The notes under the pieces are model-generated. The model searched no databases, was not told the origin of the DNA, and was given only the letters and a program-made list of their open reading frames with translations. From positions 1-60,113 of the IMG/VR virus record IMGVR_UViG_3300042466_000580: a stretch of DNA of 60,113 bases; one strand, given 5' to 3'. The stretch is from a virus. The position numbers and the translations under genes were made by a program. Shown here one piece after another: positions 29,380 through 46,767 of the stretch (position 1 is its first letter; each line of letters begins with the position of its first letter).

Positions 29380-29504
29380 CCTCCGCAATCCTGCAAACCT
29401 GTTCCGTAGTGCTGGTAGTGAGCATCACCGCGATGGTGGCCACAGGTAGCTTCTGCATGGTGTGCATGATGATCCGGGTTCTTGTGGGGAAAGACACAGA
29501 CTGA
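29376..29504 (+). CDS. 42-residue membrane protein
   Basis: ATG at 29376 overlapping the preceding stop (ATGA), with GGAGA upstream. Almost wholly hydrophobic (CSVVLVVSITAMVATGSFC, then MVCMMIRVLVG), ending KDTD. Coupling and composition support a real single-pass membrane peptide. Confidence 0.45.
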   Translation: MTSAILQTCSVVLVVSITAMVATGSFCMVCMMIRVLVGKDTD

Positions 29505-30046
29505 CTGGTTTCTGGCAGGGAGGGGTGTAATCCAGTTCTGGGATGGGGAAAAAGTCCGGGGGGGGAACTAACAGATAGGTGCGGGGGCGCGGGGGGGCTC
29601 GGGGGCCGCACACGCGATCACACGCCCGCGTTTCTTCGCCCGTGCGGGGATAGCCGCGAGCCTCCGCAAGCCCGCAGAACCGCAGCCACGGGCCTTGGCG
29701 GGCATTCCAGCGGGCGGGCGCGAGGGACCGCAGGGGAATCGTTGCCCCGTGGAACACTGTGGCAAGTTTTCGGCAGATTACACCCCTTTCGGCTGACTAT
29801 CATCACCACCCCGATCATCATGCCCATCATTGTCGGCATGGTTTTCTGCCCGGTATCTGGCATGGTTTGGCTGGTATCGGCCAGACCATGATCGGAATCG
29901 GCCATCGTGCTTGGGTGCCTGCGCGGTGCTTTCCTGGGCTTGCCCGTGCGGTTCCTCATGGGCCTGTGCGGTGTCTTCCCCGGTTGGGTGTGCGGTGTCT
30001 TTCGTGCCCTCTCGCGTGCGCTGTCTTCGTGTGTGTGTGCGCCTGG
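29505..30046 (+). other. 540-bp non-coding leader region
   Basis: No convincing gene. The first part has homopurine G runs (29553-29600) and very GC-rich inverted segments. The part at about 29917-30040 is a degenerate tandem array in which GTGCGSTGTCTTYC-like units recur every 20-27 bases. Reading frames through it are low-complexity shadows. It may be a long 5' leader or an origin/regulatory region, as it lies just upstream of the first GGA-hairpin module. Confidence 0.35.
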
Positions 30047-30104
30047 AATCTCCGGAGGAGATTTCGCCCTGTTGGTTGGTGTCGGCAATCGACCACTCCG
30101 GTCG
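30047..30104 (+). ncRNA. GGA-hairpin module 1
   Basis: AATCTCC-GGA-GGAGATT (30047-30063) is a perfect 7-bp stem with a GGA triloop, followed by TCGCCCTGTTGGTTGG and then a second hairpin CGACC-ACTCC-GGTCG (30090-30104). It lies 31 bases upstream of the next start codon. No U-tract is seen, unlike modules 2, 5, 6 and 7. Confidence 0.6.
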
Positions 30105-30134
30105 GTGCGGCAACCACAATCGGGGAGCGATGCA

Positions 30135-30479
30135 ATGCGGATCATTGAGCAACGGCTATGCGATGCGGTGAGAGCGGGGCGACCATTTCGGTCTGGCAAC
30201 ACTGTGGCCCGGGTCATGGTGACGGGTGGCTTTCGGGTGGAACTGCACGGGAATGCGATTGCTTGGGCGGCGGGGCGAAAGCCTGACGGGACGTTCCACG
30301 GTGTGACCATCGACCACTGTGGGTGGAAGACTGCGACCACCAAAAGCCGGATCAATGCCCTTCTGAGCGGCATCGGCATCAACAAGCGGGTCTATCAACG
30401 CGACGGGGCTTGGTTCATTTCCGACTTCGGCCTGCGGGGGCATTCGGACACTCCATTCGACCGCTATCACACGCTGTAG
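30135..30479 (+). CDS. conserved small phage protein (GWxTxTTxxRxN type)
   Basis: 114 residues from the ATG at 30135 (GGGGAG 7 bases upstream). The core reads RVELHGNAIAWAAG, then HCGWKTATTKSRINALLSGI and RVYQRDGAWFISD, matching a pattern I know from uncharacterised proteins in many phages ('L.GN.IA...GW.T.TT..RLN...VYQ..'). Beta-rich, probably a small single-domain protein. Function unknown. Confidence 0.65.
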   Translation: MRIIEQRLCDAVRAGRPFRSGNTVARVMVTGGFRVELHGNAIAWAAGRKPDGTFHGVTIDHCGWKTATTKSRINALLSGIGINKRVYQRDGAWFISDFGLRGHSDTPFDRYHTL

Positions 30480-30491
30480 TCACGCCCGCCT

Positions 30492-30530
30492 ACTCCACGG
30501 AGTGGAGTTCGCCCTGTTGGTTGGCATCAC
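30492..30530 (+). ncRNA. GGA-hairpin module 2
   Basis: ACTCCAC-GGA-GTGGAGT (30492-30508), then TCGCCCTGTTGGTTGG. It begins 12 bases after the preceding stop and is followed 30 bases later by an intrinsic terminator. Confidence 0.65.
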
Positions 30531-30559
30531 CCCGAATTGGCCGATGGGGTTACTCGGCT

Positions 30560-30600
30560 CCCCCGGTGGATCACGTTGATTCACCGGGGGTTTTCTTTTC
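30560..30600 (+). terminator. intrinsic terminator/attenuator after module 2
   Basis: CCCCCGGTG ... CACCGGGGG is a perfect 9-bp stem with TTTTCTTTTC. It ends only 20 bases before the next ATG, leaving no room for a new promoter, so the downstream gene needs read-through. Confidence 0.8.
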
Positions 30601-30620
30601 TTCACGCAAAGGGATCACGC

Positions 30621-30860
30621 ATGTACCACGACATCATCACTGACGATCAGGACATCATCGGCACGGTCGAAATCTTCAAGTTCGACGGTGTGCGGGTTTG
30701 CGAGGGCGATTGCTGGGCTGACGAAGACGGCGAAACCCTCCCCGCCGGTTGGTACTGGTGGACCTGCGTCCCCGGTTGCCTGCCCGATTCTGACCCATTC
30801 GGCCCCTTCGCCACGAAGACGAAAGCAATGGACGCCGCGGAGCGTTCCTATCTGGACTGA
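30621..30860 (+). CDS. small acidic Trp-rich protein
   Basis: 79 residues from the ATG at 30621 (AAAGGG upstream). It contains WADEDGETLPAGWYWWTCVP, then DPFGPFATKTKAMDAAE; the 'GPF-T---A--A' ending is frequent in small phage proteins. Strongly acidic. No function known. Expression is preceded by the GGA module and terminator. Confidence 0.55.
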   Translation: MYHDIITDDQDIIGTVEIFKFDGVRVCEGDCWADEDGETLPAGWYWWTCVPGCLPDSDPFGPFATKTKAMDAAERSYLD

Positions 30861-30870
30861 CGCCCGCATG

Positions 30871-30955
30871 ACTCTCCGGAGGAGAGTTCACCCTGTTGGA
30901 TGGTGGCGGTTGGCTGACGGAAGCCTTTCCCCGGTTCGACTCCGGGGCACCGCAC
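30871..30955 (+). ncRNA. GGA-hairpin module 3 with tRNA T-arm-like domain
   Basis: ACTCTCC-GGA-GGAGAGT (30871-30887), then TCACCCTGTTGGATGG, in which CACC and GGTG can pair around a TTGG-containing loop like a tRNA D-arm. Next come GCGGT, a small hairpin GGCT-GACGGA-AGCC, a T-arm hairpin CCCGG-TTCGACT-CCGGG (30930-30946), and ACCGC closing with GCGGT. No terminator U-tract. No full cloverleaf or anticodon loop can be drawn. Confidence 0.6.
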
Positions 30956-30991
30956 TGGTTACGGGTTCGATTACACACTGAGGGCACCATC

Positions 30992-31297
30992 ATGGGCAAA
31001 ATCACGCTTGATACCGACGTTTGCGGCGGGGCTTACTGCCTCATCGTCAATGACGATGGTTCGGACATTCTCATTCAGTCCGATTGGGACTTGCCAGGGG
31101 TTGCTTCCACGTTTGGGTGGAGCGTTCGGGATGTGAAAACGCCGGGACGGGACTGCGACCACCACGGGACTGACGGCACGGTGGATTGCCCAGAGTGCGG
31201 GCTGAAAGCCGGGACATTCATCAGCGAAGCTGGCGACTGGATCAACAGTAACGACGGTGCGTCCGTTGATGACCCGGGCTATTTCGATGGCGAGTAA
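30992..31297 (+). CDS. small His/Cys-containing protein
   Basis: 101 residues from the ATG at 30992. Beta-rich N terminus (GAYCLIVNDDGSDILIQSDW), then a possible metal site (RDCDHHGTDGTVDCPECG) and an acidic C terminus. The pattern 'C-H--...C--CG' suggests a zinc ribbon. Function unknown. Confidence 0.55.
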   Translation: MGKITLDTDVCGGAYCLIVNDDGSDILIQSDWDLPGVASTFGWSVRDVKTPGRDCDHHGTDGTVDCPECGLKAGTFISEAGDWINSNDGASVDDPGYFDGE

Positions 31298-31307
31298 CCA
31301 AGCCGAA

Positions 31308-31340
31308 ACCGGGGAAACCCGGTCTGTCCGTAATGCGGGC
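31308..31340 (+). ncRNA. two-hairpin element, copy 1
   Basis: ACCGGG-GAAA-CCCGGT (31308-31323), a GNRA-tetraloop hairpin, then CT, then GTCCG-TAATG-CGGGC (31326-31340). Copy 2 at 32283 keeps the first hairpin exactly and the second stem with different, compensating bases. Both begin about 5-11 bases after a stop codon and are followed by CACTGA and a CACACA-rich spacer. Confidence 0.55.
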
Positions 31341-31376
31341 ACTGAAGATGGCTACACACACACAAGGGGTATCACA

Positions 31377-31784
31377 ATGGCTGAAACGCTGACGATTGGC
31401 GACGTTACCATCACGGTCTGCGGGCAGGATCGGGATTACGAGGGCCGCACTTGCTACGAGGTGTCGATTGCCTTCCCAGAGGGCTATTCCTACACCGACA
31501 AGCAGGGGGAAACGCAGTTTATCGACCGGGGTTTTATTCACCGGGAACGTGACCTGCGATCTGGCTGCCAAGGCGGGACTGAGCGGGAGGGGATGGAAAG
31601 CCTGCTTTCCTTCCTGACGGCGGCGGCGGAAGCCTACCGCTACACCATGCGGACGGGCCGCGAGAGCGACAACAGCGACCTTTTCCCGGCCTTCATCGTG
31701 GAATGGGCACACCAAAACGACAGCGAAATTCAGTCTGTCCAGTGCATGTACGAGTTCGACCGCTCGGGTGAAAGCCTCGCGTAA
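31377..31784 (+). CDS. early protein of unknown function
   Basis: 135 residues from the ATG at 31377 (AAGGGG 7 bases upstream). Mixed alpha/beta (TIGDVTITVCGQDRDYEG; ESLLSFLTAAAEAYRYTM; FPAFIVEWAHQNDSEIQSVQ). The stop codon overlaps the stem of GGA module 4. No motif recognised. Confidence 0.55.
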   Translation: MAETLTIGDVTITVCGQDRDYEGRTCYEVSIAFPEGYSYTDKQGETQFIDRGFIHRERDLRSGCQGGTEREGMESLLSFLTAAAEAYRYTMRTGRESDNSDLFPAFIVEWAHQNDSEIQSVQCMYEFDRSGESLA

Positions 31785-31863
31785 TCAACGGAGTTGATTT
31801 CACCCTGTTGGATGGCAGCGACGTTGGTTGACCGCAAAGTGGGTTCGATTCCCACTTGTCGCT
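31783..31863 (+). ncRNA. GGA-hairpin module 4 with tRNA T-arm-like domain
   Basis: AATCAAC-GGA-GTTGATT (31783-31799) overlaps the preceding TAA, then TCACCCTGTTGGATGG, then GCGAC ... a T-arm GTGGG-TTCGATT-CCCAC (31839-31855) ... GTCGC. Compared with module 3 both outer and inner stems differ but still pair, while the TTCGAYT loop is kept. Not a complete tRNA. Confidence 0.6.
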
Positions 31864-31897
31864 CTGGTTCGATTGTTCACACCCTTGGAGAGCGACC

Positions 31898-32278
31898 ATG
31901 ACAAAGCGAGAAGAAATCGACGCGGTGAAAGCGTTCGTTGCCAGCCTGCCCCGGGATTCCTATGCCCGGGATGCACTGGAGCCGTTCCTGATGGAGTTTG
32001 AGAAGGGTGTCTATGCGGACTACGTTCCGACCGTTCACGACTCATGGCGGCACCGCCGGGAGGCTGACGAGGAAGCCGGTCAAGCGAGGAAGGTGCTGGC
32101 TGCGGTCAAGGAAGAAATCAAGCAGGCCAAAGCACGACTGCGTAATTGCTGCGTCGGCATGGGCACCCTGCTCGACCGGGCGAAGCAACTTCAGCACTCC
32201 ATCGACAACACGGCGGAAACCCTGAAGGGGCTGCACGGTGCGGCGGATGCACTCAACGAACGGATCGCCAGCATATAG
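31898..32278 (+). CDS. early coiled-coil protein
   Basis: 126 residues from the ATG at 31898 (GGAGA upstream). A helical N-terminal domain (REEIDAVKAFVASLPRDSYA) is followed by a long heptad-rich coiled coil (ARKVLAAVKEEIKQAKARLR; LLDRAKQLQHSIDNTAETLK). No catalytic motif. Possibly an adaptor or inhibitor of a host protein; this is inference from shape only. Confidence 0.55.
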   Translation: MTKREEIDAVKAFVASLPRDSYARDALEPFLMEFEKGVYADYVPTVHDSWRHRREADEEAGQARKVLAAVKEEIKQAKARLRNCCVGMGTLLDRAKQLQHSIDNTAETLKGLHGAADALNERIASI

Positions 32279-32282
32279 CGAA

Positions 32283-32315
32283 ACCGGGGAAACCCGGTCT
32301 GTGGGTGTGACCCAC
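32283..32315 (+). ncRNA. two-hairpin element, copy 2
   Basis: ACCGGG-GAAA-CCCGGT (32283-32298), CT, then GTGGGT-GTG-ACCCAC (32301-32315). Same spacing and layout as copy 1, with a covarying second stem. It lies 31 bases before the next ATG. Confidence 0.55.
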
Positions 32316-32345
32316 ACTGATGAGCTACACACAAAAGGATCAACC

Positions 32346-32738
32346 ATGAAATTCGACCGGAAATTCGCCCAGTTTGTATGCGTTGGGGACACGATCAAGG
32401 CAGACGTTACTGACAAGTTGCAACTCGTTGCCACTCTCGTCTTCGACAGCGACTGCGACCCGCAAAACGAGGGCTGGTATGACGAGCCAGACGTTGAGCG
32501 GTGGAAGAATGACGAGTGGCATTTCGTGGGGGTTGTGTTGTCCGTTCAATCGCACGACGGCACGATCAAGAGGAACCTCGGCTCCCTCTGGGGAAACGAG
32601 GCCAACCTCAGGGACAATAACGACCACCTGACAGACGTTGCCAATGAGTTGATTGACGAGCGGGAAATCGTGGCCGCACTGCGGGAGATTTACGAGCCCG
32701 TAACCCGGGCGATTAAGACTCTCACACACACAGCCTAA
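32346..32738 (+). CDS. early protein of unknown function
   Basis: 130 residues from the ATG at 32346 (AAAAGGA upstream). Acidic, beta-rich first half (FVCVGDTIKADVTDKLQLVA; VGVVLSVQSHDGTIKRNLGS), helical end (ANELIDEREIVAALREIYEP). The stop lies inside the stem of GGA module 5, so ribosomes finishing this gene would disturb that hairpin. Confidence 0.55.
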   Translation: MKFDRKFAQFVCVGDTIKADVTDKLQLVATLVFDSDCDPQNEGWYDEPDVERWKNDEWHFVGVVLSVQSHDGTIKRNLGSLWGNEANLRDNNDHLTDVANELIDEREIVAALREIYEPVTRAIKTLTHTA

Positions 32739-32766
32739 CGGAGTTAGGCACGACCCTCTGGTTGGT
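32733..32766 (+). ncRNA. GGA-hairpin module 5
   Basis: GCCTAAC-GGA-GTTAGGC (32733-32749) with the stop codon in its left arm, then ACGACCCTCTGGTTGG, a diverged version of the conserved tail. Followed by TTGGATGACGG and a terminator. Confidence 0.6.
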
Positions 32767-32781
32767 ATCGGTTGGATGACG

Positions 32782-32813
32782 GCCCCGGCAATTTCGCCGG
32801 GGCTTTTCTTTTT
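32782..32813 (+). terminator. intrinsic terminator/attenuator after module 5
   Basis: GCCCCGGC-AATTTC-GCCGGGGC, a perfect 8-bp stem, with TTTTCTTTTT. The next ATG is 14 bases on, so downstream expression requires read-through. Confidence 0.85.
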
Positions 32814-32826
32814 CACGGGGCACACC

Positions 32827-33105
32827 ATGCAAACGCAATGGGAATGGACACGGGTCAACAACGACACGAACGGCAATGGCCGGTTCGTCTGCCACTTCCT
32901 GCCACTGGTGCGGGACATGGCTGGCAAGGGATGGGGCACCAACAGCTTGTACAAGCTGGCCTGCAAGCGGGCCAACAAGCTGGGCGGTCGCAAGTACCAC
33001 ACGAAATCGTTCGGTGGTGGGGTGGTTTTCCAAGCGTATTCCAGCACGTTGCCGGACTTGGAGCGACGGATTCTTGAACTGCAAACCGAAGGGGGTGACG
33101 CATGA
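32827..33105 (+). CDS. small basic early protein
   Basis: 92 residues from the ATG at 32827. Reads WEWTRVNNDTNGNGRFVCHF, then YKLACKRANKLGGRKYHTKS and VFQAYSSTLPDLERRILELQ. Mixed fold with basic middle. It is coupled to the next gene (ATGA overlap). Function unknown. Confidence 0.55.
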   Translation: MQTQWEWTRVNNDTNGNGRFVCHFLPLVRDMAGKGWGTNSLYKLACKRANKLGGRKYHTKSFGGGVVFQAYSSTLPDLERRILELQTEGGDA

Positions 33106-33608
33106 GCAGCATGGCATATGACGAACTGACCGAAATCGCCGGGGAGTATGGGCTGACACTCACGTTTGAGTTCATGCCACAGGTCTTCCCCGAAGACACC
33201 AAGTCCACGGACATGAGCATGAAATGGCTGGTGACTGTGCGGCATCGGGGCAACCCGTTGCTGGCCACCACCTACACCCAAGGGGTGGCTCACTGCCCGT
33301 CCTATTCGGGCGTCAAGTGGGGACGGGGCCTGACCGTTGCCCAGCTTGAGAACCTGCGGCGTGACTGTGCCAGCCCGCAGCCCAAGGGTGGGCCGAAGGA
33401 ACCGCTGACCGCTCTGTGGTGCATCGCTTCCGACTGCCAGACGGTGATGGACGGTGGATCGTTTGAGGGATGGGCCCGTGAGCTTGGCTATGACACGGAC
33501 TCCCGCAAGGCGGAAGGCATCTATGACGAGTGCGTTCGCCAGTACCTGAAGCTGAAGCAGGCCATCGGTGACGAGGGCATCCTGACTCTGGCTGCGGTCG
33601 AACTGTGA
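33102..33608 (+). CDS. conserved phage protein (GYDxDSRKA type)
   Basis: 168 residues. The C-terminal half (ALWCIASDCQTVMDGGSFEG, then WARELGYDTDSRKAEGIYDE, CVRQYLKL) matches a pattern I recall from many uncharacterised phage proteins. The N-terminal half is beta-rich (KWLVTVRHRGNPLLATTYTQ). ATGA overlap with the upstream gene. Function unknown. Confidence 0.65.
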   Translation: MSSMAYDELTEIAGEYGLTLTFEFMPQVFPEDTKSTDMSMKWLVTVRHRGNPLLATTYTQGVAHCPSYSGVKWGRGLTVAQLENLRRDCASPQPKGGPKEPLTALWCIASDCQTVMDGGSFEGWARELGYDTDSRKAEGIYDECVRQYLKLKQAIGDEGILTLAAVEL

Positions 33609-33622
33609 CGGCACCCTGCCAC

Positions 33623-33645
33623 CCCCTCTGTTCAGAGCAGAGGGG
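33623..33645 (+). ncRNA. intergenic hairpin of a third type
   Basis: CCCCTCTG-TTCAGAG-CAGAGGGG, an 8-bp stem between two genes, 15 bases after a stop codon and 46 bases before the next start. No U-tract follows. It takes the position that GGA modules occupy elsewhere. Confidence 0.4.
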
Positions 33646-33690
33646 AGAGTTGGGGATCGTTTGAGTTACACACACGAAAGGAAACGCACG

Positions 33691-33870
33691 ATGATTCTCG
33701 GGAAAAGCAGTGAACTGCGGAACTACAGGGGCTTTGTTTATGACGGCGGGCACGGCGGGCCGTATTGGATTGTCGGCTGCTTGTCGGCGGGCACGTTCAG
33801 CAACCTCGCTGACCTTCGCCGGTACGTTGACGAGAACCTTTGGGTCTGCCCAAGAAATGCTGGCGGCTGA
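33691..33870 (+). CDS. 59-residue early protein
   Basis: ATG at 33691 with AAAGGA upstream. Short, Gly/Tyr-rich (NYRGFVYDGGHGGPYWIVGC) with a helical end (LADLRRYVDENLWVCP). It resembles a small beta-hairpin plus helix protein. No family recognised. Confidence 0.5.
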   Translation: MILGKSSELRNYRGFVYDGGHGGPYWIVGCLSAGTFSNLADLRRYVDENLWVCPRNAGG

Positions 33871-33905
33871 CTGAACACACATCCCATTACACGACGAGGT
33901 GACGA

Positions 33906-34124
33906 ATGACCCTGAAAACGACGGTCGAACTGACGAGGGGTGAGCTTGGCATCCTTGCCGCTGCCACCCTTGGCGAGTGGACAGAGGCGGATAGGTTGCG
34001 GATAGATGGCAACCGCGACGGTTGGTATGACAAGAAAGCGAAGGAGCGGGTGGAAGTCCACCTGTACGAGACTGACAAGCTGTTCAACAAACTTAGGAAC
34101 CTAATCAAGGAGATGGACGCATGA
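33906..34124 (+). CDS. 72-residue helical early protein
   Basis: ATG at 33906 after GAGGTGA. Helical (VELTRGELGILAAATLGEWT; VEVHLYETDKLFNKLRNLIK), acidic. It is coupled to the next gene by ATGA overlap. Unknown function. Confidence 0.55.
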   Translation: MTLKTTVELTRGELGILAAATLGEWTEADRLRIDGNRDGWYDKKAKERVEVHLYETDKLFNKLRNLIKEMDA

Positions 34125-34405
34125 GCAAGCACACACCGGGACCGTGGGATACTGGGGCGGGCGACATGACTGTTCGCCTCAACCGTCTGGCCGATGAGAT
34201 TGCCAATCGGTTTGGCGACCACTCTGACCGTCAGGTCGAGGGCAATGCTGCCCTGCTCTTGGCTGCCCCCGAGCTACTGGCTGCGCTGAAGGAGGTGGCA
34301 GAAGGTTGTGAGTCCAGACTGCGAAAGGGCAAGGACAGCGGCGATCTGGAAACGCTGCGTCTGTGCCGTGCCGCAATCAACAAGGCAGAAGGGAGGGGTG
34401 AGTGA
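34121..34405 (+). CDS. conserved small phage protein (MSKHTPGPW type)
   Basis: 94 residues. It begins SKHTPGPWDTG and later has GNAALLLAAPELLAALKE. These two elements define a very widespread uncharacterised phage and bacterial protein group ('HTPGPW ... N--L-AAAPELL-AL'). Function unknown. 4-base overlaps with both neighbours. Confidence 0.75.
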   Translation: MSKHTPGPWDTGAGDMTVRLNRLADEIANRFGDHSDRQVEGNAALLLAAPELLAALKEVAEGCESRLRKGKDSGDLETLRLCRAAINKAEGRGE

Positions 34406-34470
34406 GCGACAACCTATGGGCCTTGCTAGTGGCGGGCCTGATGGTGCTGCACCTCATGTGTAGTGAGTGA
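34402..34470 (+). CDS. 22-residue hydrophobic micro-ORF
   Basis: GTG at 34402 overlapping the preceding stop (GTGA) with GGGAGG just upstream. Encodes a short hydrophobic peptide (LWALLVAGLMVLHLMCSE). The good ribosome site and coupling argue for translation. The short length keeps confidence modest. Confidence 0.35.
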   Translation: MSDNLWALLVAGLMVLHLMCSE

Positions 34471-34476
34471 CACACG

Positions 34477-34515
34477 ACTGTTCGGAGAACAGTTCACCCT
34501 GTTGGTTGGTATCGA
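34477..34515 (+). ncRNA. GGA-hairpin module 6
   Basis: ACTGTTC-GGA-GAACAGT (34477-34493) then TCACCCTGTTGGTTGG. The hairpin is identical to module 7. It is followed without gap by a terminator stem. Confidence 0.65.
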
Positions 34516-34548
34516 CCCTCGGCAATTCCGCCGGGGGTTTTTCTTTTT
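34516..34548 (+). terminator. intrinsic terminator/attenuator after module 6
   Basis: CCCTCGGC-AATTCC-GCCGGGGG (8 bp, one G-U pair) with TTTTTCTTTTT; the next ATG is 18 bases on. Confidence 0.85.
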
Positions 34549-34565
34549 CACAAAGGAACTTTGAC

Positions 34566-34979
34566 ATGGCGACGAGCGACATCATTGCGGCGATGGCAGC
34601 GGGCACCACGGCGACGGCAACCAAGACGGTGGGCAAGGGTAAGCGGGCGGTCGAGGTGACCATCACCCGTACTGCCCCGGCGGTGGTGGTGGTGGACGAG
34701 ACTGTGACCGACGAGCCGGTCAGCTACACCGGCAAGCTGCCAGTGGATGAGGGCAAGGTGGTAACCGAAATCCTCCCCGGCTTGTCTCTTGTCCGGTACT
34801 CGCGTGGCTACACGGCACTGCGGGTGAAGGGCAAGGCATGGGGTGGTAACAAGGTGACGATTGGCAGGCCGCTCTGGCGGGAAGACTTGCTCGCCCTTGG
34901 CCGTGCCCTCCTGGCGGATGCAGAGGGAGCCCTGTCCTACGATGAGGCCCACGGCAAAGAAGAAGTTGTGCCGTTCTGA
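34566..34979 (+). CDS. early protein of unknown function
   Basis: 137 residues from the ATG at 34566 (AAAGGA upstream). Ala/Thr/Val-rich first half (AAMAAGTTATATKTVGKGKR; APAVVVVDETVTDE), then a compact region (GLSLVRYSRGYTALRVKGKA) and a helical acidic end. No motif recognised. It is preceded by attenuator module 6. Confidence 0.55.
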   Translation: MATSDIIAAMAAGTTATATKTVGKGKRAVEVTITRTAPAVVVVDETVTDEPVSYTGKLPVDEGKVVTEILPGLSLVRYSRGYTALRVKGKAWGGNKVTIGRPLWREDLLALGRALLADAEGALSYDEAHGKEEVVPF

Positions 34980-35003
34980 ACACATACCACAAGGAGATTC
35001 GAC

Positions 35004-35495
35004 ATGGCAGCGTTAGACCCAAGGCCGGTGAAGGAAAGGATTCTGTCCAGCATCTCCAAGCCTGACGGGGAGGGCGGGTGCTGGGTTTGGCAGGGAGTAA
35101 CACTTCCCCGTGGGTACGGTCAGATCAGCGTCCACTCTCAAAGGCATTACGCCCATCGACTGTCTTACGAGACTTTTGTTGGGCCTATCCCTGACGGCTT
35201 GGACATCATGCACCTGTGCGACAACCCGTCTTGCGTCAACCCGGCTCATCTGACACCGGGTACACGCAAGAGAAACATGAATGACGCATCTTTGAAGGGA
35301 CGAGTCCCGCATGGGGAGAGGCACTGGGGTGCAAAGCTGACAGAAGACAAAGCGCGTGAGTTGATTGCGGTCAGGGATCGGGACGGTCTGTCTTACAGAA
35401 ATCTGGCCAAGCTGTTTGGCATCAGCACGATGCAGGCTTGCCGGATATGCACGGGAAAGAGGTGGGCTGGTCTTTCAAGAAAGGAGGACGAGTAA
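35004..35495 (+). CDS. HNH homing-type endonuclease
   Basis: 163 residues (AAGGAG upstream). CWVWQGVTLPRGYGQI, AHRLSYETFVGPIPDGLD and MHLCDNPSCVNPAHLTPGT form the HNH_3-type nuclease core. The C terminus has a KLTEDKARELIAVRD segment and an HTH-like LAKLFGISTMQACRICTG for DNA recognition. Related to the late-region copy at 14102-14578. Probably a mobile free-standing homing endonuclease. Confidence 0.8.
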   Translation: MAALDPRPVKERILSSISKPDGEGGCWVWQGVTLPRGYGQISVHSQRHYAHRLSYETFVGPIPDGLDIMHLCDNPSCVNPAHLTPGTRKRNMNDASLKGRVPHGERHWGAKLTEDKARELIAVRDRDGLSYRNLAKLFGISTMQACRICTGKRWAGLSRKEDE

Positions 35496-35704
35496 TGATC
35501 CGATTCGATTCCCCCATCCTCACCGCATCACAAGCGGCGAAGGTGGCGGGCTGTTCGGACAACTACATGCGGCGGTTGCTGGATGGCGGCAAGGCCACCG
35601 GGTACTACACCGGAACGGTCTGGCTGATGGAACTGAACGAGGCACTGAGGGTTCGCGGTGAACTTACGGTGCGGTCAATAGGCAAACGAAAGGCAGGCAA
35701 GTGA
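35495..35704 (+). CDS. HTH protein, excisionase-like candidate
   Basis: 69 residues, starting in a TAATG overlap. LTASQAAKVAGCSDNYMRRL is a clear winged-HTH/excisionase-type recognition segment, followed by LDGGKATGYYTGTVWLMELN and a basic C terminus (SIGKRKAGK). Small size and the presence of integrases in the genome make a recombination directionality factor possible; a transcription regulator is equally possible. Confidence 0.55.
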   Translation: MIRFDSPILTASQAAKVAGCSDNYMRRLLDGGKATGYYTGTVWLMELNEALRVRGELTVRSIGKRKAGK

Positions 35705-36048
35705 TGAACGATAGATACAGGATGTGTCACATGACGCCGAAGGTAAGCGTGGAGTTGGAGTCCGGGGACACAGCGGAGCTTACGCTCGGTGACTGCATGA
35801 GGGTGATAAACCAACTCATGCACCACAAGTTCCTACAGTTTGACGTTGACCTGCCGCGAACGCTGATGGGCAGGGATATTGCAGAGTGGGAACAGGTCGG
35901 TGTTCACGGGACTGGTGAGTCTTGCTGGCAGTACGAGGACGATCTCGACAACCTGACCATCACTCTCCAGCTTGACGAGATCACTGCGATTGGTGGCCTG
36001 CCCCGGGAGGAGTTCCGTAACATCCCTAAAGAGAAGGAGGTGGAGTGA
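35704..36048 (+). CDS. early protein of unknown function
   Basis: 114 residues from the ATG at 35704 (TGATG overlap). Acidic, beta-rich (VSVELESGDTAELTLGDCMR; DDLDNLTITLQLDEITAIGG). No motif recognised. Confidence 0.5.
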   Translation: MNDRYRMCHMTPKVSVELESGDTAELTLGDCMRVINQLMHHKFLQFDVDLPRTLMGRDIAEWEQVGVHGTGESCWQYEDDLDNLTITLQLDEITAIGGLPREEFRNIPKEKEVE

Positions 36049-36368
36049 TGGCAAAGAAGCCAAGCCGGGGCCGTGAGTACAAGGCGCAGCGTGAGTTCCT
36101 CATGCTGCAAGTACAGCGGGCTTTGATCCGGGGAATCTTGCGGCTGCATGACAAGGGCTGGACCCCCGACGAGATCGCAGCTTCGGTCGATGTGATGATG
36201 AAGGCCATCGGTGACACGATGGTCAAAGACCTTGCAACCAACGGGGAGATTGACCCCAAGACCTACGAGTTCACGATCCGCAGCGTGGAGTCGGTGATCA
36301 GCGCGGACAAGTATGCGGAAACCGTGGCCGATTGCTTTGAGGAAATGAAACGAAAGGAAGGTAAGTGA
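36048..36368 (+). CDS. helical early protein
   Basis: 106 residues, TGATG overlap at the start, with GGAGG upstream. Basic N terminus (AKKPSRGREYKAQREFLMLQ), then amphipathic helices (RALIRGILRLHDKGWTPDEI; DVMMKAIGDTMVKDL). The phrase GWTPDEIAASVDVMM has an HTH-like look. Function unknown. Confidence 0.5.
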   Translation: MAKKPSRGREYKAQREFLMLQVQRALIRGILRLHDKGWTPDEIAASVDVMMKAIGDTMVKDLATNGEIDPKTYEFTIRSVESVISADKYAETVADCFEEMKRKEGK

Positions 36369-36685
36369 TGAGAACGACGATGACTCTGGTGCTGGCACTG
36401 GTAGCTGGCACAGCGTTCGGTCAGTACCCCTATGCCATACCACCGGCATGGGGATACATGAATAAGAACGAGGCCATGAGGCAGCAACAGTTTGAGAATC
36501 AGCGGTGGCAACGTGAGCAGCGGGAGAAGGAAGCGAACTACCTATGGGGCGGCGACCCTATGGAGTACGCAGAGCGAGGTGCCCGCATTCGGATGATGAA
36601 GGAACAGACCCGGACCCTGCGGTTGCAGAATGACTACCGCGAGAAGACGGGGAACTTCCTCATCGACAACAATCCGTTCAGGTAG
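36368..36685 (+). CDS. exported helical protein
   Basis: 105 residues from the ATG at 36368 (TGATG overlap). Signal peptide at residues 1-19 (TMTLVLALVAGTAFG, cleavage before QYPY). The mature part is Gln/Arg/Glu-rich and helical (MRQQQFENQRWQREQREKEA; RIRMMKEQTRTLRLQND). An early gene encoding an exported protein suggests a superinfection or envelope function, by inference. Confidence 0.6.
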   Translation: MRTTMTLVLALVAGTAFGQYPYAIPPAWGYMNKNEAMRQQQFENQRWQREQREKEANYLWGGDPMEYAERGARIRMMKEQTRTLRLQNDYREKTGNFLIDNNPFR

Positions 36686-36711
36686 TTGACGTATACGCTT
36701 GTATACTGTAT
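36686..36711 (+). promoter_or_regulatory. putative promoter with GTATAC operator pair
   Basis: TTGACG (36686-36691) is followed by GTATAC-GCTT-GTATAC (36691-36706), and TATACT or TATCGT could serve as -10. The paired hexamers form a perfect dyad. It lies directly after a stop codon and upstream of module 7. It is the only clear promoter-like site I found inside the early region. Confidence 0.4.
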
Positions 36712-36725
36712 CGTGTGTGTGCGTT

Positions 36726-36764
36726 ACTGTTCGGAGAACAGTTCGCCCTGTTGGTTAGTAGCAA
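36726..36764 (+). ncRNA. GGA-hairpin module 7
   Basis: ACTGTTC-GGA-GAACAGT (36726-36742), then TCGCCCTGTTGGTTAG. The hairpin is identical to module 6, while the flanks differ. Confidence 0.65.
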
Positions 36765-36775
36765 CGATGGACTTG

Positions 36776-36813
36776 GCCCCGGCAGCACTTCGCTGTCCGG
36801 GGCTTTTTGTTTT
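36776..36813 (+). terminator. intrinsic terminator/attenuator after module 7
   Basis: GCCCCGG-CAGC ... GCTG-T-CCGGGGC, about 11 bp with one bulge around ACTTC, followed by TTTTTGTTTT. The next ATG is 21 bases on. Confidence 0.85.
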
Positions 36814-36833
36814 CACACCCAAAGGAATTGACC

Positions 36834-37703
36834 ATGACCCCTCTGAATAGTTCGATTGTCGAGCGTGTCCGTAACTTCTTTCCCGATGTGACCAAGCAGT
36901 CGCTGTTCTCCCCGGACATGCGGCCCACTCCCCACTGTGGCCTGTTCAGAAATGACACGGGAGCTTGCTTCGGTCCTGCGGTCAGTGCCAACTACGAGCT
37001 TCACACCACCGATGACATCTGTGCCTTGGTGGAAGCGAGCGAGCCGGTGCTGGGTGAGTGCGGCGACGTTCAGTTGGGCTTCCGAGATGGACACTATGTC
37101 TCCATCCAGCCCACCAAGGAGCATCTGTTTACCGTTCACAAGAACGACACGGTGTTCCCCCGGCTGATCGTGACGGCCCGCTATGGCGAGGCTTTCACTG
37201 CCACCATCGGGTTGTTCCGGGTGGTGTGCGGCAACCTCGCCATCTTCCAGAAGGTGGCGGGAACCTCGGTGCGGATCAGGCACACCTACTCCCTCCGCTC
37301 CAAGATGGAAGACCTCATCGAAGACTTCCACTCGCTGCGGAATGGGGTGGGCAACCTTGAGGTGGCGATCAAGGAGATGGCTGACCGCAAGGTGCGGCTG
37401 GCTGATTTCCTCGACGGCATCTACGGCACCCCGCTTGAGAGTGCAACGGAGCGGTCGATCACCATGCACCGCAACCGCACTGAGCAGATCGTGCGGCGGC
37501 TGATGCGTGAGCAGGTTGCATTGGGTGAGCCCACTGCAATCAACGAGGTCAGTGCATGGGCCGCGTTCAATGCGGTACAGGGATTCATCCAGCATGACTC
37601 CCGCCGCAAGGGCAAGCCGGGTGATTTCGACCGGGCAATCATGGCTCTGTCGGACGCGAAGGTTCTTCAGGCCCAGCACTTGGCCATGACGATGGCGGTC
37701 TAG
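36834..37703 (+). CDS. DUF932-like protein
   Basis: 289 residues from the ATG at 36834 (AAAGGA upstream). The central region (RYGEAFTATIGLFRVVCGNL, then AIFQKVAGTSVRIRHTYSLR, SKMEDLIEDF) and the helical C-terminal half match the DUF932/plasmid- and phage-type protein pattern, with the conserved 'R-VC-N' core. The family is common on mobile elements, without a settled function. It is the largest early gene apart from the recombinase, under module 7. Confidence 0.65.
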   Translation: MTPLNSSIVERVRNFFPDVTKQSLFSPDMRPTPHCGLFRNDTGACFGPAVSANYELHTTDDICALVEASEPVLGECGDVQLGFRDGHYVSIQPTKEHLFTVHKNDTVFPRLIVTARYGEAFTATIGLFRVVCGNLAIFQKVAGTSVRIRHTYSLRSKMEDLIEDFHSLRNGVGNLEVAIKEMADRKVRLADFLDGIYGTPLESATERSITMHRNRTEQIVRRLMREQVALGEPTAINEVSAWAAFNAVQGFIQHDSRRKGKPGDFDRAIMALSDAKVLQAQHLAMTMAV

Positions 37704-37715
37704 TCACAAGGCAGT

Positions 37716-37748
37716 GCGGGGCGGGGAGTGCGTTGCTCCTCGCCCCGC
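37716..37748 (+). ncRNA. strong intergenic hairpin
   Basis: GCGGGGCGGGGAG-TGCGTTG-CTCCTCGCCCCGC, 13 bp with one G-U pair, 12 bases after a stop. No U-tract follows, so an mRNA barrier or processing element is more likely than a terminator. Confidence 0.5.
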
Positions 37749-37768
37749 TGGCCACAAGGGGAACGAAC

Positions 37769-38077
37769 ATGAACAGGCTGACCGAATACCGAATGAGCGA
37801 GCGACGGCTACTGAAACCGGGGACACGATTCACCGCGAAGGGCGGGCCGGTCTACCAGTTAGCCGATGGGACTGCCGTGCCACTGGCATCACGCGGACCC
37901 TTTGAGTTCATCGCCTACTGTCAGGCGGATGGGTACGACTTTATCCAGGCACGGGATCGGGACGGGTGTAGTGCGGTGCTGCACCTGACAGGGGAGAGGA
38001 AGACTGCCAGCCCTGAGATTATCGGGCGACCTTACACGTTGGGGAAGGTGTTTCGTAAACAACCAAGGAGGAGGTGA
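37769..38077 (+). CDS. small SH3-like early protein
   Basis: 102 residues from the ATG at 37769 (AAGGGG upstream). RLLKPGTRFTAKGGPVYQLA resembles the first strands of small SH3-like phage proteins. Basic C terminus (GKVFRKQPRRR). Function unknown. Confidence 0.55.
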   Translation: MNRLTEYRMSERRLLKPGTRFTAKGGPVYQLADGTAVPLASRGPFEFIAYCQADGYDFIQARDRDGCSAVLHLTGERKTASPEIIGRPYTLGKVFRKQPRRR

Positions 38078-38078
38078 A

Positions 38079-38249
38079 ATGTTCAAGTTCAGATACAAGG
38101 ATGGGCTCGCTCAGACTGAGACTGAAATGATTCGTGCCCTGCGTTTGCGGGGCTATGCCGTTGTGGTTGTCAAGTCTGACGCGATGCGGCGAGGCTTTAT
38201 CGAAGAGGCTATGCGGAAGGCAGCAACACAGAAAGAGAGGGCGACATGA
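38079..38249 (+). CDS. 56-residue basic early protein
   Basis: ATG at 38079 with a strong AAGGAGG upstream, 1 base after the previous stop. FKFRYKDGLAQTETEMIRAL, then RGYAVVVVKSDAMRRGFIEE and a basic helix. It is coupled to the next gene (ATGA). No family recognised. Confidence 0.55.
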   Translation: MFKFRYKDGLAQTETEMIRALRLRGYAVVVVKSDAMRRGFIEEAMRKAATQKERAT

Positions 38250-38503
38250 TCGCACTGATTGAGATCGCGTTTCTATACTACTGGTGTAATACATTCAGCA
38301 CCTCGGCCAACGACGGTGCGACCTACCGGCAGCGGGTCAAGGTGACTGCCGCCATGATCGTGTTCCTCATTGTGGCTGGGCATTCCGCCAGCAAGGATTT
38401 GTTTGCCGTCCTCGCTGGCTGGGCGGTAGCCATAGAGGTGGTGTGTTTTGTCCTGGCGTTCCTTGACTATGACGAGCGACTCTTTCCCCGGGAGGTGAAT
38501 TGA
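38246..38503 (+). CDS. multi-pass membrane protein
   Basis: 85 residues. Two or three hydrophobic segments (IALIEIAFLYYWCNTF; TAAMIVFLIVAGHSA; LFAVLAGWAVAIEVVCFVLA) and an acidic tail. Holin-like in topology but encoded in the early region, so superinfection exclusion or another membrane role is as likely. Confidence 0.55.
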   Translation: MIALIEIAFLYYWCNTFSTSANDGATYRQRVKVTAAMIVFLIVAGHSASKDLFAVLAGWAVAIEVVCFVLAFLDYDERLFPREVN

Positions 38504-38700
38504 TGGACCCATACGAAGAACGAAGCGTAGCCCCAGTGGACCGCAACTCCCTGGAGTACCGGCTCTACCAGTTGGCTATCGCTTGCTACCGATACCTCGA
38601 CGCGAAGGACCCAAAGCAAGCTGAGTTGAAGCAGCTTTGCAATGACCTACCGCATGAGTACGAAGAGAGAAGATTCCGCGCACACCGAGAGAGGAACTGA
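38503..38700 (+). CDS. 65-residue helical early protein
   Basis: ATG at 38503 (TGATG overlap). Charged and helical (EYRLYQLAIACYRYLDAKDP; QAELKQLCNDLPHEYEERRF). No motif recognised. Confidence 0.5.
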   Translation: MDPYEERSVAPVDRNSLEYRLYQLAIACYRYLDAKDPKQAELKQLCNDLPHEYEERRFRAHRERN

Positions 38701-38702
38701 CC

Positions 38703-38933
38703 ATGACCACCGTAACCCTGACTGAGCGGCAGGAAGAAATCCTGCGGTACATTGCCAGCCACATTGACATCAATGGGTTTCAACCCAGCTTCAGAGAGAT
38801 GATGGCACGGTTCAAGATCAGGAGCCCCAACGGAATCAAGGGGCACCTTCAAGCACTGGAACGTAAGGGAATCATTGCGTCGAATTACCAAACCTCACGG
38901 GCAATTTCATTTAACTGGAAGGAGTGGCTGTAA
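38703..38933 (+). CDS. LexA-type DNA-binding protein without protease domain
   Basis: 76 residues. The whole sequence is the LexA N-terminal winged HTH: LTERQEEILRYIASHIDING, FQPSFREMMARFKIRSPNGI, KGHLQALERKGIIASNY, ending SRAISF. The S24 autoprotease half is absent, so it cannot self-cleave. Candidate transcription regulator, perhaps recognising the palindromes at 28626-28666 or the host SOS box. Its stop overlaps the recombinase start. Confidence 0.8.
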   Translation: MTTVTLTERQEEILRYIASHIDINGFQPSFREMMARFKIRSPNGIKGHLQALERKGIIASNYQTSRAISFNWKEWL

Positions 38934-39802
38934 TGCCCACATGCTTTCTTTATTCCAGGGTGTCAACAGAAGATCAAAATTTGTCGCCCGCTTGGCAAGC
39001 CGAAGTCTGCAAGAACCACTACGAGTTCAGCCTAAAGTCAAAGGGGTACGCACTGCACCCCGAAGTCTTTCATGACCACGGCGTGTCGGCCTATCATGTT
39101 GACTGGCGTGACAGGCCGCGAGCCCGTGAGATGTTCAACCTCGTCAAACCGGGTGACATCATCGTGGTGGCAAAGCAAGATCGTGCCTTCCGATCCAGCC
39201 GAGACAGAGAAAATACTTTCTACTTTCTCAACAAGGTTGGCATCGACATCGTGATACTTGATGCGATGCTCGACACTAGCACTGCCGCCGGGAAGTTTGC
39301 TGCGTCCGTGATAGCAGCGCAGTGCCAGTTTGAGTCTGACGTTAAGAGCGAAAGACAGAAGGCAGCCCACTCCATCCGGCGGCAGCGGAAGACACCGATG
39401 AAAAAGTTGCCACCCCCAGGCTGGAAGCTGGACAAGATGATTGACGAGCTAGTCCCTGACTGGGATGAGCGGCGGCTGATGGCCACGGTCTATGACCAGC
39501 GTGACAAGGGCTATCGCTCGGTGGCGGAAGCGGTGCGGGTACTCAAGGCGGCGGGCACACTGCGGGCCAATGGCTGCAAGTACACGCAGTCATGGTTCAC
39601 CAGGGCCTACTCTGTCTTCCTGAGGAACTTCCCTTGCGAAGGCTACCAATGCCACTGCCGGTCGGAGCATAAGGCAAAGGCTCACATGAAGGTGGGCAAG
39701 CTCGTCAAGAAACGGAAGGACCGGATTGCAAAGCTAGTCCGGCCTCACGACGTAGCTTCCCCAGCTTCGCAGCAAGTAGCTTCGCAGCCTGCCGGGTACT
39801 GA
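38933..39802 (+). CDS. serine recombinase (resolvase/invertase family)
   Basis: 289 residues from the ATG at 38933 (TAATG overlap; AAGGAG 8 bases upstream). Catalytic Ser11 in YSRVSTEDQ. Further family motifs are KPGDIIVVAKQDRAFRSSRD and DTSTAAGKFAASVIAAQCQF followed by ESDVKSERQKAA. The C-terminal half is a shorter basic DNA-binding region with a Cys/His cluster (CEGYQCHCRSEHKAKAH). It could catalyse integration, resolution or inversion. Its end overlaps the sigma-factor gene on the other strand by 98 bases. Confidence 0.85.
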   Translation: MPTCFLYSRVSTEDQNLSPAWQAEVCKNHYEFSLKSKGYALHPEVFHDHGVSAYHVDWRDRPRAREMFNLVKPGDIIVVAKQDRAFRSSRDRENTFYFLNKVGIDIVILDAMLDTSTAAGKFAASVIAAQCQFESDVKSERQKAAHSIRRQRKTPMKKLPPPGWKLDKMIDELVPDWDERRLMATVYDQRDKGYRSVAEAVRVLKAAGTLRANGCKYTQSWFTRAYSVFLRNFPCEGYQCHCRSEHKAKAHMKVGKLVKKRKDRIAKLVRPHDVASPASQQVASQPAGY

Positions 39803-40244: not shown

Positions 40245-40246
40245 AG

Positions 40247-40423
40247 TCACAGGCGCGCATGGGTTGCCTCCCGATACGTCCGGCTGCAATGCGATTCATA
40301 GCATTCCCGGCACCGGACATCTTCACTCGGCATACCGTATGGGTCAACATTGACGGTGGCCTTTTTGCCACAGTCAACGCACTCACCAGGGGACTCGGGA
40401 TGGCTTGTTTCTTCGCTTGCCAT
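40247..40423 (-). CDS. 58-residue zinc-ribbon protein
   Basis: ATG at 40423 with GAGGAG 7 bases upstream; overlaps the gene before it by 41 bases in another frame. Four-Cys site: GECVDCGKKATVNVDPYG, then VRCRECYESHC. A small nucleic-acid- or protein-binding zinc ribbon. The stop is 2 bases before the sigma-factor ATG. Confidence 0.6.
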   Translation of the reverse strand: MASEETSHPESPGECVDCGKKATVNVDPYGMPSEDVRCRECYESHCSRTYREATHARL

Positions 40424-44981: not shown

Positions 44982-46552
44982 TGGGCCACCTCCTCTGCCA
45001 GCACTGCCTCACGGCGATCCACCTCTTGCTTCACGGCAGCCGACCACATGGCATTCAGCTTCCCCTCCCTCAACATCCACTGGAGATATGAGAGGGGCAC
45101 CACAGGGTCACGCAGGGGCCTTCCTCGCCATCTGCCAAAGGGCACCCTGAATCCACGCACGGTGGGAGTCTTGGCATCGGGGCGGGCGAACAGGTCACGG
45201 GACCGGCTATCGAACGTCACCCCCACTACCAGTTGCTTGCGCCGCTCCCGCTCGGCCTCCCGTTCCAGCCGCTCCAGTTCTTTCTGTTCATCAATGGCAG
45301 CTTGGATGTCGGCATCCAGTTCCTCCAGGGTCTGCTCCTCGCCGCCCTCGTCCTCGTCCTTGATCTTGTCGATCAGTTCCTTAGGACCCGCCATCAGAAT
45401 GTCGATGGCTGTGATGGGCTGGTGGTAGCGGCTGGTGGAGGTGATGTCATGGAGGTGCCAGTTGGGCTTGGCCGATGCAGCGATGGCAGCCGCCCGCTCC
45501 TCGACCGTGTTCAGACCATCCAGCACCCCTGGCAGGGCGCGTGTGCCCCGGCCCAGCATCTGCATATAGGTGGCCTTGGACTTGGTGGGCCTGCCGTTGA
45601 TGATGCAGCGGACCTCGGGAATATCGACACCCCGACCAAGCACCCGGCAGTTGACGATCAGCCTGCTCTCCCCGGCCTTGAACGCTGCCATCTCAGCCGC
45701 CCGCTCTTCCTCATTCTGGGTGCCGTAGACCAGCGAGGTCTTAACCCCATGCCGCTCCTGCATCATGTCCCGCATGAGGATGGACTGCCTCACGCTGTTG
45801 CAGAACATGACGTTGAACCGCTCGACCATCACTCGGTTAGCCAGGGCGGCAAGGTCATGGAGAACCTGTTCGCTGGTCAGGATGCGGTCGAGTTCATCAG
45901 GGGCGTAATCCACCCTGTTCTTTGACAGGTGGGCAAAGGACACCGACTCCACCCGATGGACCGTCACCAGGGGCTCCACCAGATACGCCAGCTTGAAGGC
46001 ATCCCGTAGCTCCATTGAGTAGCCACAGTCTGTGTAGAACCCAAACAGGCTCTCCTTCTTCTTGGAGCGGAAGGGTGTAGCCGTGATGCCCAGCACCCGT
46101 GCCCCGCCCTCAATGAACTCCTTCAGGATTTCCCGGGCAGTCTTGGAGAAGAACGAATCGCACTCGTCCACGATGATGAGGTCGATCTGCCCGATGAACC
46201 TTCGGAACCGCTCGTTGCTCTGGAGCGTCTGCCATGTGGCTACGATCCAGCCCGTGCCCGCGTCAGCCTTATTGAAAGCCTGTTCGATGTCAGCTACCTG
46301 ACGGCGAAGGTGGCGGATGGTCCCGGCCCACTGCTTCACAAGGTTGTCTTGCTGGCAGATGACCATGACCCTGGCCCCCTCCTTGGGCATACAGACCGTC
46401 GCCGTTGTCTTGCCCATCCCAGTGGGCAGAACCCCAAGGACAGCCTTGTGCCCCGCCCTGAAGCTGGCCCTGCAACCAGAGATGAATCCCTTCTGATAGC
46501 AGCGGAGGATGTCATCGAACAAAGGAAGGTGTTCGTAGCGTGGGTTGTTCAT
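44975..46552 (-). CDS. superfamily 2 DNA/RNA helicase with C-terminal DUF3820-like domain
   Basis: 525 residues. Motif I PTGMGKT at 43-49, motif II DECD at 129-132, motif III TATPFR, and in the second RecA domain GRGVDIPEVRCIINGRPTKS and YMQMLGRGTRALPG (motifs IV-VI). An acidic coiled coil follows (EGGEEQTLEELDADIQAAID), then a C-terminal VPFGRWRGRPLRDPV and PLSYLQWML, the DUF3820 signature. Probable ATP-dependent DNA unwinding or fork remodelling; the only helicase seen. The start overlaps the csrA stop (TGATG). Confidence 0.85.
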   Translation of the reverse strand: MNNPRYEHLPLFDDILRCYQKGFISGCRASFRAGHKAVLGVLPTGMGKTTATVCMPKEGARVMVICQQDNLVKQWAGTIRHLRRQVADIEQAFNKADAGTGWIVATWQTLQSNERFRRFIGQIDLIIVDECDSFFSKTAREILKEFIEGGARVLGITATPFRSKKKESLFGFYTDCGYSMELRDAFKLAYLVEPLVTVHRVESVSFAHLSKNRVDYAPDELDRILTSEQVLHDLAALANRVMVERFNVMFCNSVRQSILMRDMMQERHGVKTSLVYGTQNEEERAAEMAAFKAGESRLIVNCRVLGRGVDIPEVRCIINGRPTKSKATYMQMLGRGTRALPGVLDGLNTVEERAAAIAASAKPNWHLHDITSTSRYHQPITAIDILMAGPKELIDKIKDEDEGGEEQTLEELDADIQAAIDEQKELERLEREAERERRKQLVVGVTFDSRSRDLFARPDAKTPTVRGFRVPFGRWRGRPLRDPVVPLSYLQWMLREGKLNAMWSAAVKQEVDRREAVLAEEVAQW

Positions 46553-46767
46553 CAGACACCTTCCTTTCTGCGCCGCTCCTCACGTTCTGCTTCAGCCTGC
46601 AACCGACCGTACTTCCCGACCAACTCCTCCCTGAGAATCGTGTACTCGGGGGGCGCGTCGATCCCGATCCGCACGGCACCACCTTGGGTGATGTGCGTGA
46701 CCGTGATCTTGATGTTCCCCGGTTCGATAACGATGGTCTGATTGACCCGGCGTCCTAGTACCAACAT
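46552..46767 (-). CDS. csrA: CsrA/RsmA family post-transcriptional regulator
   Basis: 71 residues from the ATG at 46767 (GGAGGTGA upstream, overlapping the previous stop). It aligns along its length with CsrA: MLVLGRRVNQTIVI, VTVTHITQGGAVRIGIDAP and TILREELVGK. The residues that contact RNA in known CsrA dimers are kept (Leu4, Arg6-Arg7, and Arg46 in REE, equivalent to Arg44); the preceding His is Leu. The C terminus is an extended charged helix (EAEREERRRKEGV). CsrA dimers bind GGA in hairpin loops, and seven GGA-loop hairpins lie in the early region of this genome. Confidence 0.9.
   Translation of the reverse strand: MLVLGRRVNQTIVIEPGNIKITVTHITQGGAVRIGIDAPPEYTILREELVGKYGRLQAEAEREERRRKEGV

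Follow-up and report, generated by a model that had tools for sequence, protein, structure and literature searches.

Along one operon of the virus record IMGVR_UViG_3300042466_000580, which was analysed over its whole length of 60,113 bases and is called the window here, a module of about 36 nt occurs seven times, each copy made of a perfect 7-bp hairpin with a triloop and a short tail. The modules, labelled M, make up a real, conserved family of structured RNA with stems preserved in related phages. The family is new; its setting, phage operons with clustered hammerhead ribozymes, is a known one. We tentatively favour a role of M like that of a nut site, at which read-through depends on a factor.

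All seven hairpins with a GGA triloop described in the initial annotation are present where it had placed them (Table 1). All of them are + strand hairpins, the count for the - strand being 0, and 100 dinucleotide shuffles of the window gave a mean of 0.07 such stems and a maximum of 1. The five or six stem sequences it had counted are six, with ACTGTTC occurring twice, and all are fully paired. The conserved tail that it had assigned to every copy fits six of them with small departures and fails for copy 5 (32733), which has ACGACCCTCTGGTTGG, a tail type of other phages. Repeats resembling GTGCGGTGTCTT and alternating GT/CA tracts lie upstream of copy 1 (29900-30040), and GT/CA alternating tracts precede many M modules, in either strand sense.

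Six related phage records carry M, as do several short contigs and one phage-like contig (L118) of a Planctomycetaceae metagenome-assembled genome (G001). A pattern scan of viral contigs found the near relative G002 with eight copies, of which L235 and L016 are parts, and a pattern scan of bacterial genomes followed by reading of the flanks found L118, with five copies and the loops GGA, AGA and AAA. A neighbouring gene led to three more records (L236, L237, L238), and the DUF932 gene led to L285, which belongs to G399 and has mostly GAA loops. With model R2, M was present in 12 of 20 records picked as relatives or earlier matches, and two more short contigs also carry it. The counts below refer to 46 copies (window 7, L235 7, L016 1, L236 7, L237 7, L238 8, L118 5, L285 4), copies in further short contigs standing outside this number. 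All 46 lie on the same strand as the next gene and every copy has a triloop of the form RRA (GGA in 38, AGA in 4, GAA in 3 and AAA in 1). In an alignment of 37 copies (36 distinct), from which near-identical copies and the four of L285 were left out, 252 of 252 stem cells are paired and all seven pairs show double-sided changes, with 94 double-sided cells in total; of 500 shuffles, none equals the family in the share of cells paired, in this number of double-sided cells or in covariation score. The idea of a structured family reused along one operon is thereby borne out. In L118, three M modules (2379, 2252 and 2085, - strand) follow one another with no clear gene between them.

Model R1 was run against 392 planctomycete genomes taken out of a larger group, and 18 of them matched at E <= 0.01, with strong matches solely in G001 and weak matches of 27.2 bits or less in the 17 others; the 27.2-bit match, the only weak one inspected, contained no perfect 7-bp triloop stem. 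A universal host element was rejected on these grounds, as 391 of the 392 genomes gave no strong match. The pattern scan of bacterial genomes returned at least 119 stretches, L118 alone having a 7-bp stem among the matches listed, and more loci may exist. The DUF932 relatives G400-G407 had no M at E <= 0.001, no homologue of gene g13 was found in isolated phages, and the terminases of isolated phages were at most 27% identical to the query among the best 10 of 15 matches. No Rfam 15 family, for M or for any other part of the window, scored above its gathering threshold, and permissive Rfam scans of window 29400-40400, L235, L236, L237, L238 and L118 gave no match built on the M stem; one tRNA-Sec match (22.4 bits, E 3.9, L238 6075-6140) overlaps the final bases of a stem. 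A literature search, with most subscription journals outside its reach, found no publication on the family.

The two parts of M differ in what they follow. Among 31 copies from five phages, with gene slots assigned manually and with G002 and L237 left out as close to the window and L236, stem similarity was 0.704 within against 0.485 between gene slots (0 of 2000 permutations) and 0.500 against 0.505 by phage. For tail positions 1-12 the similarity was 0.838 against 0.562 by phage (0 of 2000 permutations) and 0.569 against 0.617 by slot. As the stem follows the slot and this part of the tail follows the phage, a phage-specific trans-acting factor is implied, and a reader of the tail that differs from phage to phage would yield such a pattern.

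Candidate partners and foldings of the tail were also considered. A role as a phage antisense target was rejected, as across six phages (the G002 pieces, G396-G399 and the window) the only complements shared among the best four per tail were the modules themselves; at the same depth G398 has one further 12-base complement (L334 2478) and other phages have shorter ones, for which no counterpart elsewhere was seen. Kissing between loop and tail (AGA with UCU), judged by eye, suits the 4 AGA copies; copies with GAA, or with GGA and UGUU, do not allow it. A putative tail hairpin CC[UCU]GG has its outer pairs unpaired in 12, 3, 4 and 2 of 23 rows, and its inner two pairs are invariant.

The positions of M within the operon also point to control of read-through. 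Upstream of the DUF932 gene, the slot has the same order in 6/6 phages, namely promoter-like sequence, M, terminator-like hairpin and gene, with the stem starting 39-41 nt after the stop codon in 6/6, and the relatives have similar promoter-like sequences and a palindrome close to GTATACGCATGTATAC (read by eye). This is the layout of a controlled leader, and a promoter pointed straight at a terminator calls for regulated read-through. In the promoter-like site at 36686-36714 the spacer forms a near-palindrome that may be a repressor operator. Genes for a LexA-type DNA-binding protein (38703-38933, PF01726) and for a resolvase-type recombinase (38933-39802, PF00239) are present in the window. 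M also stands ahead of the cluster's first gene in 6/6 phages, copy 1 having counterparts in 5 further phage records and in L118, and M with a terminator is found 5' of the g13 family in all 6 records having g13, despite a varying upstream gene. The cluster's first gene (30135-30479) matches PF23790 (Kyanoviridae Gp96).

Downstream of M, a terminator-like hairpin with a T-rich run follows in 21/46 copies, a tRNA-like fold in 16/46 and neither in 9/46. Some of the 21 terminators were judged by eye where the register of the script was poor, and weak terminators flagged by the script at L118 2379, L238 6060 and L238 6860 were left out. The nine copies with neither comprise the seven before the cluster's first gene or its like in L118, one further copy of L118 and one of an endonuclease-like unit. 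In the window, terminators had been annotated in four cases and are indeed present after copies 2, 5, 6 and 7; a simple consensus scan found the first three and a short piece of the last, its total of 6 being no excess over a shuffle mean of 6.2. In the tRNA-like folds, an acceptor of 5-7 bp is accompanied by one small arm and by a T-arm, whose loop is TTCGANN in 10 and TCCGATT in 1 of the 11 examined (for the fold at L238 6060 the script picked a poor acceptor partner). ARAGORN reported no tRNA in the window, L235-L238 or L118, and the best likeness was that of L238 6094-6139 to the mascRNA-menRNA family RF01684 (32.8 bits, E 0.0057, gathering score 42.5), two other folds reaching 22.7 bits.

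These numbers also bear on the proposal that M modules are attenuators or antiterminators. The promoter-like sequence, M, terminator and gene at copy 7 in 6/6 phages agree with an attenuator, while a terminator follows only 4/7 copies in the window and the word covers under half of the family, because the remaining copies run into a tRNA-like fold or into neither. Among 20 terminator copies tested by folding, with L285 left out, 10 are predicted to form the stem (at least 0.74) and the terminator (at least 0.75) together; in 4 the terminator reaches at least 0.78 although the stem, displaced or half displaced, has 0.00-0.50; and in 6 with poor terminator register the terminator has 0.00-0.40 and the stem 0.93, 0.93, 0.93, 0.64, 0.25 and 0.00. 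A mutually exclusive attenuator is thus not clearly supported by these predicted structures.

What the data show is the stem with its covariation, where M occurs and at which positions, the sequences of the terminators and a tail specific to each phage; from these we infer an action of M as RNA, through a factor, on read-through. With its strict 7-bp stem, RRA triloop and phage-specific tail, M would be recognised in phage RNA while it is being transcribed. Each phage would carry or tune a factor that binds stem and tail, and the bound factor would set read-through of RNA polymerase past the terminator or RNA-processing structure that follows. M would in this way act like a nut site, yet with the hairpin preceding the linear part. 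Its repetition along the operon might be explained because hammerheads, tRNA-like folds and an intergenic element termed X would cut the transcript between genes, as we propose.

Several observations weigh against read-through control of this kind. A terminator is lacking after 25/46 copies, and no antiterminator gene was identified in the analysis. Tail positions 13-16 do not track the phage and lean to the slot (35 of 2000 permutations), and recombination between copies could also give concerted change in the tail. Two of the covariation statistics are less distinctive than the others, with seven double-sided pairs reached by 32/500 shuffles and the count of pair types by 404/500. For copy 2 (30492), folding predicts that another pairing displaces the stem, which has a probability of 0.02; in 5 more of the 20 terminator copies folded, the stem scores 0.00-0.50. 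Finally, the promoter scan of the region found 1 site where 1.7 were expected by chance.

Among the 33 window proteins scanned by Pfam (82 were called), CsrA was the only member of an RNA-binding family. M could alternatively be a CsrA/RsmA hairpin that serves control of translation or stability, or a sponge, through the CsrA of the phage. The GGA loop of 38/46 copies agrees with this, as does the presence of csrA in 5/6 M-bearing records of at least 37 kb and in 0/8 DUF932 relatives that lack M (four of them >50 kb). The carriers are G000, G002, G396, G398 and G399, and csrA was not found in G397 (37 kb) or G400-G412, nor in 5 short M-bearing contigs of 10-22 kb, and the association may reflect shared ancestry alone. 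The window protein has 84-97% identity across four relatives; G399, whose CsrA shares 97% identity with the window protein, nevertheless has GAA in 3/4 copies, and 8/46 copies in all have AGA, AAA or GAA. Structures of RsmE favour A(N)GGAX in loops of 5-8 nt (PMC4005645), which differs from the triloop of M, in which an A stands two bases 5' of GGA in 18/36 rows. With the tail also left unexplained by CsrA, we regard this alternative as improbable.

The operon contains further RNA elements beside M, as hammerheads, tRNA-like folds and element X had escaped the initial annotation. A search with RF02276 that was coarser missed the hammerhead at 32276..32333, which has CGAAA, NUH, CUGANGA and three stems, as do four hammerheads in L236, four in L237 and three in L238, all identified by a pattern that includes stem II; in those at window 31301 and L235 7133, stem II has one additional base. 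The best of these scored 32.3 bits, and 0/20 records exceeded the gathering score of 37. Element X is intergenic, starts at the stop codon TGA and is a possible new processing RNA. From g1 to g19 of the window, all nine gaps of at least 67 nt contain a single element, be it M, a hammerhead or X, and those of up to 35 nt are free of elements; the 375-nt gap after g19 holds a gene.

Table 1 Positions of M and of other features in the window and of element X in relatives.
Feature	Position	Strand	Details
M copy 1	30047..30082	+	AATCTCC GGA GGAGATT and tail; ahead of the cluster's first gene; without terminator or tRNA-like fold
M copy 2	30492..30527	+	
M copy 3	30871..30906	+	
M copy 4	31783..31818	+	Stop codon of upstream gene overlaps stem
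M copy 5	32733..32768	+	Stop codon of upstream gene inside stem
M copy 6	34477..34512	+	
M copy 7	36726..36761	+	
Intrinsic terminator after copy 2	30560..30600	+	
Intrinsic terminator after copy 5	32781..32813	+	
Intrinsic terminator after copy 6	34514..34548	+	
Intrinsic terminator after copy 7	36775..36812	+	Read from the sequence; found in part by scans
tRNA-like fold after copy 3	30906..30953	+	Acceptor GCGGT/ACCGC, one arm, T-arm with TTCGACT loop
tRNA-like fold after copy 4	31817..31863	+	Acceptor AGCGACG/TGTCGCT, T-arm with TTCGATT loop
Sigma70-like promoter sequence	36686..36714	+	TTGACG-17-TATCGT, just 5' of copy 7
Type II hammerhead-like ribozyme	31301..31360	+	CUGAAGA core, extra base before stem II; RF02276 27.5 bits, E 0.038
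Type II hammerhead ribozyme	32276..32333	+	CGAAAC core, GUC, CUGAUGAG; 30.8 bits, E 0.005
Element X	33606..33681	+	TGACGG.A.CC..CCACCC-hairpin-TTGGGGATCGTT; exchanged with hammerheads in relatives
Element X in relatives	L235 8041 and 8981; L236 7456; L237 9086; L238 8157; L285 2706		
csrA	46552..46767	-	71 aa; PF02599 E 4.9e-17; candidate RNA-binding trans-acting factor

The main rival to read-through control is that M is a processing or 3'-end element, with a tail cut by a phage or host nuclease or with a stem that marks where the preceding mRNA ends, so that M would be one of several devices (with hammerhead, X, tRNA-like fold and terminator) that split the operon into short mRNAs. The distribution of one element per larger gap fits this possible, if less probable, role. 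So does the stop of the upstream open reading frame (ORF), which ends -18 to +6 nt from the stem start in 29/46 copies (27/42, and 2/4 in L285), and the 16/46 copies that run into a tRNA-like fold whose acceptor and T-stem together make 11-13 bp in the 11 examined. In addition, the block of g6, M and terminator shares 94% identity with L236, while for g7, the gene after it, a search of five loci gave no match. Ahead of one terminator block lies M in the window and L235, and a hammerhead in L236-L238, the neighbouring genes being different. Copy 1, on the other side, has no ORF end within 60 nt upstream in the window and L235-L238, although a 114-aa ORF ends there in L285, and copy 7 lies behind a promoter-like sequence rather than directly behind a stop codon.

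Exchanges between elements at the same gene junction weigh further on this alternative. With flanking genes grouped by BLAST, the F8/F1 junction has a hammerhead in L235 and a lone tRNA-like fold in L285, the F5/F2 junction has a hammerhead in the window and X in L235 and L238, and X or a hammerhead follows F3; after F0, behind M, a terminator and a tRNA-like fold exchange. M itself was never exchanged for a hammerhead, X or a lone tRNA-like fold at any gene junction compared. Hammerhead, X and tRNA-like fold thus form one interchangeable class of cutters and M apparently another, and because of this separation processing is the less favoured role for M. In five of the six phages (not L285), no two cutters stand in successive element-bearing gaps and M tends to alternate with them; a rough hand estimate placed this alternation not clearly beyond chance.

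The company of hammerheads in phage operons also raises the idea that M is itself a new class of self-cleaving ribozyme. Catalytic cores are normally invariant, while the tail of M varies between phages and the module has just one well-supported helix, and such a class is therefore very improbable.

Alternatively, M could act as DNA, as a single-stranded hairpin or as a recombination boundary that moves gene cassettes and an endonuclease unit. G-U pairs are rare, with 1 in 252 stem cells of M versus 11 in 146 of the hammerheads (p 1e-4, the cells not being independent), M opens an inserted endonuclease-like unit, and homology between the window and L235 breaks at element borders. Homology breaks at hammerhead borders too, however, every copy of M is in gene orientation, and the covarying stem has no fixed recognition sequence, all of which make a role as DNA quite unlikely. 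The unit in question is an insertion after or before the terminase gene, with M at its start and a gene for an endonuclease-like protein, and L256 has an empty site after the terminase. Matches of the protein to the GmrSD C-terminal (HNH-type) domain are below the Pfam cut-off (E 0.00056 and 0.014), one protein also gave HNH_4 at 0.022, and nothing matched a third, copy-like protein of L237; the name HNH endonuclease is therefore our interpretation, as is the mobility of the unit. The unit is present in the relatives L242, L244 and L247. At about 17465-17495 of the window (- strand, end of the terminase gene) a doubled GCGTAAC is perhaps the scar of a lost unit.

A broader version of read-through control, which we consider rather unlikely as a whole, would see in this operon an undescribed layer of RNA control. 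A phage factor that coevolved with the tail would act at every M, and interchangeable cutters (hammerheads, X as a possible ribozyme, and tRNA-like folds of RNase P type) would split the transcript, so that each gene or pair of genes would have its own device and its own dose. If read-through control holds, M would add to the control RNAs of phages one whose covariation is strong and whose phage-specific recognition part can be tracked. An operon with several kinds of intergenic RNA devices would offer a testable model for dosing many small genes off one transcript. Element X may be another processing RNA, and junctions at which hammerhead, X and tRNA-like fold replace one another in nature are ready-made comparisons.

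M can be compared with several known systems. The likeness to mascRNA-menRNA (RF01684) belongs to the tRNA-like fold after 16/46 copies rather than to M, and is below the gathering score. Like CsrA/RsmE hairpins, M has GGA at the tip in most copies and occurs in phages that encode csrA, but it differs in its triloop, its other RRA loops and a conserved tail that CsrA does not call for. Clustered type II hammerheads have been described in phage operons, with transcript splitting proposed (PMC3088659). The hammerheads of this operon are of the kind found in prophage clusters (RF02276, PMC3088659), being small RNAs between phage genes, while M is without the hammerhead core and no swap with hammerheads was seen at the same junction. 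HK022 put is an RNA of about 70 nt with two stem-loops that occurs in two copies downstream of early promoters and acts protein-free (PMC9378689); M is similar in being a phage cis RNA that could act on terminators, and differs in having about 36 nt, one supported helix and a phage-specific tail. The comparison with put RNAs made in the initial annotation does not extend to this architecture, as M has one supported 7-bp helix of 17 nt and the second helix in the tail is weak. No N-like gene was found in the analysis. Lambdoid nut sites, which work with the N protein, combine a hairpin with a linear conserved part, lie near the operon start and before terminators, and are recognised in a phage-specific manner. 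M resembles them in joining a hairpin to a linear conserved part and in standing near the operon start and, in 21/46 copies, before a terminator; with its phage-specific tail it may also be recognised in a phage-specific way. It differs from them in that the hairpin comes first, that an RRA triloop sits on 7 bp, and that 4-8 copies per record are present in the six larger records.

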